A stretch of 10,291 bases of DNA. Origin: Thiomargarita sp. (GTDB lineage Bacteria > Pseudomonadota > Gammaproteobacteria > Beggiatoales > Beggiatoaceae). Below the pieces are notes generated by a model. That model ran no database searches. It saw only the letters and a program-made list of their open reading frames with translations, and had not been told where the DNA came from. The stretch spans positions 1-10,291 of the forward strand of contig JAUXCJ010000010.1 in the NCBI GenBank assembly GCA_030618965.1, read 5' to 3'. The position numbers and the translations under genes were made by a program. Positions 155 through 1,576 of the stretch are shown here, piece after piece; the first letter of the stretch is position 1; each line of letters starts with the position of its first letter.

Positions 155-901
155 ATGAAGTTGTTAAGAATACTTACCGTGATTTTACTGTCCATGTATG
201 TTTCTGGCATGTTGGCAGGCTGTACTATGTCTAAATTAAAGCACTACAACAGCAGCGTCGTCCAGTATCTCTACCCAAACCAAAATCAGCACATCGAAAC
301 GCCTAAAATTCCCTTATTATCCTTACCTTTAAAGGTTGGAATTGCTTTTGTACCTAGAGCATCTGGGGGACCTAAGAATCTCACAGAAAGAGATAAAATG
401 GTTTTAATGAAAGAAATCAGCAAGCATTTTAAGGAATATGATTTCGTCAAATCAATTGACCTTATTCCATCGGCTTATCTCACTGCAAAGGGCAGTTTTA
501 CAAATCTGGATCAACTTCGCACTATGTACGGGATTGATGTGATTGCGCTGATTTCTTATGATCAAACCCGATTTACCGATAGAGGATTGGCTTCTATAAC
601 GTATTGGACAATCATCGGCGCATATATTGTGCCTGGAGAAAAAAACGATACCCACACGATGGTTGATGCCTCCGTTTATGACATAAAAAGCCGTAAAATG
701 CTATTTCGAGCACCAGGTGTTAGCCATATAAAGAGTAAATCAACCCCGATCAATATATCAGAACAGATACGCATCGACAGTCTGGAAGGTTTCAAGCAAG
801 CAAGTCATGAACTTGTGATTAGTCTTAAAGAACAGCTTGAACTATTCAGAGAAAGAATTAAAGAAGAACCACAAGATTACCAAATAATTCATAAACGATA
901 G
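155..901 (+). CDS. Rhombotarget-type lipoprotein, sorting tail frameshifted off
   Basis: The protein opens with a lipoprotein signal peptide: MKLLR, a hydrophobic stretch, then the lipobox LAGC with Cys23 as the lipidated residue. Threonine follows the cysteine, so the Lol pathway would be expected to carry it to the outer membrane. The body has a YLYP motif near residue 40 and a VGIAFVP segment near 60, which I recognise from the family of lipoproteins found with rhombosortase. Its biochemical function is unknown. The frame as given has 248 codons and stops at TAG 899-901. The next frame immediately continues as a GlyGly-CTERM tail (separate entry), so the intact protein would have about 277 residues. 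The frame switch must lie between about 888 and 898, because the tail frame has a TAA at 885-887. Removing one A from the AAA at 893-895 joins the two parts. The gene is either mutated, mis-sequenced or frameshifted during translation. The following gene encodes the likely processing protease. Confidence 0.8.
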   Translation: MKLLRILTVILLSMYVSGMLAGCTMSKLKHYNSSVVQYLYPNQNQHIETPKIPLLSLPLKVGIAFVPRASGGPKNLTERDKMVLMKEISKHFKEYDFVKSIDLIPSAYLTAKGSFTNLDQLRTMYGIDVIALISYDQTRFTDRGLASITYWTIIGAYIVPGEKNDTHTMVDASVYDIKSRKMLFRAPGVSHIKSKSTPINISEQIRIDSLEGFKQASHELVISLKEQLELFRERIKEEPQDYQIIHKR

Positions 902-986
902 CGGCGGCGGTAGTTTGGACCTATATTTTTTAATTTTCATTGTGGTATTAGGTGGATTTCGGTTATGGTACTACCGAAAAGGATAA
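897..986 (+). other. GlyGly-CTERM sorting tail in the +1 frame of the lipoprotein
   Basis: Read from 897, this stretch encodes DSGGGSLDLYF, then a hydrophobic run (LIFIVVLGGF), then RLWYYRKG and a TAA at 984-986. That is the full three-part architecture of the GlyGly-CTERM signal: a Gly-rich Ser motif, a transmembrane helix and a short basic end. Rhombosortases are known to recognise and cleave this signal. It has no start codon of its own in a sensible place and can only be the C-terminal end of the lipoprotein gene upstream. It overlaps the first 22 bases of the rhombosortase gene, which also suggests that this is the native end of the lipoprotein reading frame. Confidence 0.85.
950..955 (+). 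promoter_or_regulatory. Ribosome binding site of the rhombosortase gene, inside the sorting-tail code
   Basis: AGGTGG lies 9 bases before the ATG at 965. The same bases encode part of the hydrophobic helix of the GlyGly-CTERM tail. Ribosomes finishing the full-length lipoprotein at 986 would pass this site and could re-initiate. Ribosomes stopping at 901 would end about 64 bases short of the ATG. Confidence 0.5.
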
Positions 987-1576
987 TCTCACAGACACCC
1001 ATTTGGACAATCTTTATTCTTGGTTTGAGCATCGTATCGTATGCTTTACCTGAAGTCTCATCCGCATTTATTTATGATCGGACTACTATACTTAAAGGAG
1101 AAATTTGGCGGCTTTTATCCTCGCCTTTAGTGCATTTTACGAATATCCACCTATTTTATAATCTTTCGGGCTTTGGGATTGCGGGATGGATTATTGAGCA
1201 TAAAAACTATCGGCATTTTGGACTGTTATGCGTGTTAATGGCTTTTTTTATTAACCTATCCTTGATGATTATGAAACCAAACATGATCTATTATGGAGGA
1301 CTGTCTGGTTTAGTCTATGGCTCGATTTGTTATCTCGCGCTTTGGGGATTACGTGATTCACAGCCATGGCGTTTCATAAGTTTGGTGATTCTTCTTGTCA
1401 TCCCGATTAAGATTATCTTAGAAATTTACCTAAATAAATTCATTTTACCTTATTCAAGACAACAAATTTTTACGCCAATACCTCTTAGCCATATTGTAGG
1501 ATGTTTGGTAGCCTTATTCATGTTTTTTGCCATAAAGATTAATGAGAATAAACGATTTTTATTGTGGTTAAAATGA
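965..1576 (+). CDS. rrtA: Rhombosortase (rhomboid-family intramembrane serine protease)
   Basis: This is a small integral membrane protease of 203 residues with about six hydrophobic segments (roughly 11-30, 50-75, 84-103, 108-128, 137-155 and 172-191), matching a minimal rhomboid core. The visible rhomboid signatures are a WR motif at 49-50, an HLFYN motif at 62-66, the catalytic serine in GGLSG (Ser114) with a glycine at 119, and the partner histidine in PLSH (His176). The short length, the KIILE segment before the last helix and the position next to a GlyGly-CTERM protein favour rhombosortase over a general GlpG-type rhomboid. Known rhombosortases cleave GlyGly-CTERM proteins at the inner membrane, as shown for Vibrio proteases. 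One such enzyme usually serves several targets in a genome. The start overlaps the lipoprotein tail frame by 22 bases, so the two genes are probably co-transcribed and translationally coupled. PyrD follows after 36 bases. Confidence 0.82.
   Translation: MVLPKRIISQTPIWTIFILGLSIVSYALPEVSSAFIYDRTTILKGEIWRLLSSPLVHFTNIHLFYNLSGFGIAGWIIEHKNYRHFGLLCVLMAFFINLSLMIMKPNMIYYGGLSGLVYGSICYLALWGLRDSQPWRFISLVILLVIPIKIILEIYLNKFILPYSRQQIFTPIPLSHIVGCLVALFMFFAIKINENKRFLLWLK

Follow-up and report, generated by a model that had tools for sequence, protein, structure and literature searches.

Dedicated pairs of a GlyGly-CTERM target and its rhombosortase are described by Haft and Varghese (2011, PMC3237569), in whose account genomes with a single target tend to carry it beside the rhombosortase gene. 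The same source lists genomes with a rhombosortase and no recognised target, the passage in question naming sequencing and gene-finding problems, decaying systems or rare variants; the only Beggiatoa listed, strain PS, appears with one target and no rhombosortase found. In Vibrio cholerae, rhombosortase cleaves the GlyGly-CTERM tail of the type II-secreted protease VesB; the cleaved protein undergoes modification and is retained at the cell surface via the processed tail, and VesB without an intact tail, a laboratory-made form, is released (Gadwal 2018, PMC6219818). Here we describe a rhombotarget lipoprotein gene of Thiomargarita sp. in which the GlyGly-CTERM tail is present but lies outside the lipoprotein reading frame, directly upstream of an intact rhombosortase gene. 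The gene is located on a 10,291-nucleotide (nt) stretch, hereafter the window, that is an entire contig of a draft genome (2,069,183 bases in 439 contigs, 59.55% completeness).

The target in the window differs from the dedicated pairs in being a lipoprotein, a word absent from the main text of the 2011 paper on these pairs, and in the displacement of its tail. No description of a frameshifted rhombotarget lipoprotein was found among the listed titles and abstract openings of the rhombosortase, GlyGly-CTERM and rhombotarget literature. Unlike VesB, the window protein has at its N-terminus the letters L-A-G-C, which we take to be a lipobox.

The lipoprotein gene (155..901, forward strand) matches the TIGR04179 profile with 299.8 bits against a cut-off of 150, the match spanning only profile positions 1-230 of 259. 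The in-frame GlyGly-CTERM fusion expected for TIGR04179 is missing: the frame ends with the residues ...DYQIIHKR, followed by the stop codon TAG at 899-901, and the tail, with its GGGS motif, hydrophobic helix, RLWYYRKG end and TAA stop, occupies 903..986 of the same strand in the +1 frame. The tail frame is closed upstream by TAA at 885-887, reads FINDSGGGSLDLYFLIFIVVLGGFRLWYYRKG from there and stops with TAA at 984-986; it is thus open from 888, and the two frames overlap at 888-898. An earlier interpretation made without database searches (hereafter the sequence-only reading) had reported the ...IIHKR-TAG end, a complete tail one frame over and the same overlap behind the TAA at 885, all of which is borne out by the frames and by the comparison with relatives.

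Specifically, from GGGS on, the window tail (903-983) shares 25 of its 27 residues with the tail that a genome of the same genus (G001) has in frame, and it is because of this match, rather than any profile score, that we accept it as no chance frame. Against TIGR03501 it scores 15.3 bits, just short of the cut-off of 15.5, and 13.3 bits (E 0.571) when the whole genome is searched; at this loose setting (E up to 10) matches also arose in 11 of 14 control genomes, in one of them above the cut-off. A TIGR03501 search of eight genomes (matches at E up to 1 in two, none above the cut-off) missed the plainly visible tail of G001 and is accordingly uninformative on other GlyGly-CTERM proteins. That a GlyGly-CTERM tail is present and lies outside the lipoprotein frame is confirmed.

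The site of the change is the residual linker between body and tail (896..902, forward strand), examined in an alignment of nine DNA sequences together with the protein linkers. From the last shared Lys (or equivalent) codon to GGGS, the window has 7 nt, seven relatives (L015-L018 and L023-L025) have 12 nt and the genus sibling (L014) has 21 nt; all eight relatives' lengths are multiples of three and that of the window is not. By parsimony, the window linker would have lost a net 5 or 14 nt, and one short deletion would account both for the lost Pro-x-Tyr linker and for the change of frame. The sequence-only reading had explained the frame change by one surplus base, for example in the AAA at 893-895. 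We reject this as the simplest account, given that the linker falls 5 or 14 nt short of those in the relatives; removal of one base would leave 6 nt, a length seen in none of the eight. The lesion sequence found no match in viral_contigs.

In the relatives, the tail is nearly always fused in frame. One scan of genome_contigs yielded 32 loci encoding a relative of the lipoprotein, the closest coming from drafts titled Thiotrichaceae, Gammaproteobacteria, Thiomargarita, Parabeggiatoa, Thioploca and Halobeggiatoa, presumably all environmental sulfur bacteria. Read in frame to the stop and judged by eye, 29 of the 32 close with a stretch that contains glycine, then a hydrophobic run and basic residues. 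The three tailless exceptions are a Thioploca draft (L019, ...IIHKPDYQE), a Halobeggiatoa (L022, ...IINKSN) and a Gallionella draft (L027, ...FKVIK); about 620 nt behind them showed no tail in the other frames, and apart from the window no locus was seen to have a tail in a shifted frame. At the Gallionella locus (L027 345-2093), two rhombotarget lipoprotein genes stand in tandem, the first tailless and the second tailed.

Class-wide, 19 of 369 genomes matched, the window's included. Among the other 18 loci, one (L076, below the cut-off) gave no follow-up match and another (L062) runs off its contig; 15 of the 16 that can be read to the stop have an in-frame tail by eye, one of these class loci being shared with the genome_contigs set (L059 = L031). 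The exception, L074, is a distant relative (32% identity to the best query) that keeps SGGGG and has a hydrophilic end in place of the membrane helix. A phylum sample gave matches in 17 of 398 genomes; with the window's genome set aside, the other 16 all extend to profile position 253 or further, a measure of profile reach only. Within the order (42 genomes), eight score above the cut-off: five reach positions 253-258, and the three that fall short are the window's (231) and the genomes of the Thioploca (G021, 234) and Halobeggiatoa (G034, 235) exceptions. Most genomes of the family are without the lipoprotein, which was matched in 10 of 42, the window's and two weak ones included. No second copy was found in the window's genome, which is about 60% complete. 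Tail loss as such has precedents, namely L019, L022, L027 and L074.

The rhombosortase gene (965..1576, forward strand) is intact. It scores 100.7 bits against TIGR03902 (cut-off 84), a profile that gave sub-cut-off matches in all 14 control genomes and none above, and both S114 (within GLSG) and H176, invariant columns among five sequences, are present; we take these residues to be the catalytic pair, as in rhomboids. The start codon lies 22 nt inside the end of the tail, and a Shine-Dalgarno-like AGGTGGA (950..956, forward strand) precedes the ATG at 965 by 8 nt, within the Leu-Gly-Gly codons of the tail, so that 950-986 carries both a ribosome-site-like motif and a start. The aligned relatives likewise have a G-rich block at this position, and the first possible start of the next open reading frame (ORF) is found at -22 or -25 in six relatives (L015-L018, L026, L028) and elsewhere in other loci, for example at -4 in L025 and -34 in L024; near the lipoprotein end, no next ORF was found in 14 of the 30 loci looked at. 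The next ORFs of L015 and L016 were tested as rhombosortases, and the genomes of L017 and L018 have a rhombosortase at that place. In the sibling G001 (L003/L014), a run of 10 N directly behind the tail means that the rhombosortase start is not safely readable.

This overlap partly explains the preservation of the tail DNA, because the ribosome site and start codon of the protease sit inside the old tail. For the same reason, preservation is poor evidence that the tail is used here. The sequence-only reading had taken the preserved tail as a sign that the event is recent or not real, an argument that stands in weakened form now that 950-986 is seen to serve the protease gene as well.

That reading had left both a sequencing or assembly error and a genuine recent indel in play. 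Both remain, and a gene-level control favours the indel. We compared 306 ORFs kept on G001 stretches (60 stretches, 392,534 bases) with DNA of the window's genome (81 contigs with the window, 395,426 bases), counting as comparable the genes with a match of at least 60% identity (27 genes, 25,776 aligned nt, 11 contigs). A first frameshift screen had returned 3 pairs and 13 internal-stop rows for the window's genome and 3 pairs and 18 rows for G001; once the ORFs had been trimmed to start codons and those overlapped by a longer ORF removed (331 and 306 kept), each genome was down to a single frameshifted gene. Of the 27 genes, none but the lipoprotein has a frameshift on the side of the window's genome. 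In the reverse direction one of 27 is frameshifted, on the G001 side: at L192 3519-4305, a G001 gene shows a possible frameshift relative to its counterpart in L090 (63 and 48% identity). Thus, within this small control, the window's draft genome is not rich in indels. We favour a real mutation because only one of the 27 comparable genes is frameshifted, namely the lipoprotein.

An error would mean that the lipoprotein-tail gene is intact in the living cell and that the frame is broken in the contig only. Such an error seems rather unlikely to us, even though the draft is of low completeness, the tail is better kept than the body (25 of 27 against 196 of 246 residues identical to G001), the remainder of the lipoprotein/rhombosortase pair is intact and the run of N just behind the G001 tail hints that the neighbourhood may be hard to assemble. 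Against it stand the 26 comparable genes free of frameshifts and the 6-nt linker that a one-base error implies; a 5- or 14-nt error would presumably be unusual, and the last part of the tail is held in place by the ribosome site and start of rhombosortase in any case.

Our preferred account, in turn, is that a short, probably recent, real deletion in the linker between body and tail put the GlyGly-CTERM tail out of frame, and we consider it likely; we directly observe both reading frames, the shortening of the linker, the relatives' in-frame tails and the intact protease gene, and we infer that the deletion exists in the organism itself as well as in the assembly. Several points weigh against this account. 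The linker length of the relatives itself varies (12 or 21 nt in the aligned eight); in L039, L041 and L044 the spacing between the anchor motif and the first G-G/S/A is only 5 residues, no anchor having been found in L023 and L040, and a legitimately short linker combined with a one-base error is possible. The error control covers 27 genes only, six of which (8,691 of the 25,776 nt) are on the window itself and several of which are covered in part, and the genome is only a 59.55% complete draft in 439 contigs. Finally, the low divergence of the tail fits a recent event and appears to date it only weakly. The tail differs from that of G001 in 7 of 81 nt and 2 of 27 residues, and the body in 50 of 246 residues and 23 of 78 fourfold sites. 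We expected 0.15-0.17 differences per site, a figure of our own that halves the value of roughly 0.3 for fourfold sites; on this basis, the binomial P is 0.067-0.025 for 7 of 81 nt and 0.17-0.10 for the 4 of 45 nt outside the ribosome site; the dating is weak also because 950-986 holds the ribosome-site-like AGGTGGA and the rhombosortase start.

The arrangement could also be functional, with programmed or leaky +1 frameshifting at AAA-CGA-TAG producing both a tailed and a tailless lipoprotein, as the sequence-only reading had proposed as one of its three options. The tail frame is open and well kept, and the codon just ahead of the stop is the minority arginine codon CGA (547 of 4,699 Arg codons in 247 predicted genes); however, the relatives, the same genus included, show a plain in-frame fusion, no +1 arrangement was seen among the 32 loci, and a slip would be expected to re-pair poorly. 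The shift site is not conserved either. When positions were compared with gene coordinates, AAACGATAG, which occurs in 14 of the 216 loci searched (four of these being copies of the window), lay in none of the relatives' lipoprotein genes. Neither CGA, at 5.7 per 1000 codons, nor TAG, with 38 of 216 stops in the same predicted genes, is exceptional. No upstream Shine-Dalgarno or ribosome-site-like stimulator is visible in the sequence, in agreement with what the sequence-only reading had said of an RF2-like element, and folding of 880-970 gave no sign of a stimulatory RNA structure (z +1.75; 199 of 200 shuffles fold at least as well). We therefore reject a programmed +1 frameshift: shift site and frame arrangement are unconserved, there is no stimulator in view and relatives are fused in frame (29 of 32 loci). 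Frameshifting of either kind appears very improbable to us, and we would give hardly any credence to the related scenario in which AAA-CGA-TAG leaks into the +1 frame to yield a minor tailed form, a fresh deletion having made a constitutive sorting tail an occasional one.

Under the linker deletion that we prefer, the tail would have left the lipoprotein frame, and the predicted product is an N-terminally lipid-anchored protein that ends in ...IIHKR without a rhombosortase signal. By analogy, such a product would keep its lipid anchor and stay unsorted by rhombosortase. The rhombosortase, with its own ribosome site inside the old tail, would remain intact and would lose its neighbouring, perhaps only, substrate.

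As a special case of this account, included in its likelihood and not additional to it, the tailless form may have been selected as a first step toward the state of the Thioploca/Halobeggiatoa genus, which has lost both the tail and the adjacent rhombosortase gene. The body of the window lipoprotein still scores well over the family cut-off, and the tailless lipoproteins of L019 and L022 do so too (295.1 and 278.7 bits), the single rhombosortase found in each of these genomes being on another contig and 23% identical to that of the window. We nevertheless regard selection as improbable: in a single genome it is indistinguishable from a neutral or harmful recent mutation, and the window rhombosortase is still intact. 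Together with L046 and L047, these two loci display a tailless lipoprotein, no linked rhombosortase and a very different one elsewhere in the genome.

The Thioploca and Halobeggiatoa loci resemble the window in belonging to the same family and in having a stop just behind ...IIHK/IINK; in contrast to the window, which keeps both elements, they show no tail in any frame and have no rhombosortase on the same contig. If the deletion in the window is real, a sulfur bacterium of the Beggiatoa kind harbours here a naturally occurring tail-off mutant of a lipoprotein/rhombosortase pair, which may represent an early stage of the tail loss that has already been completed in the Thioploca/Halobeggiatoa genus.
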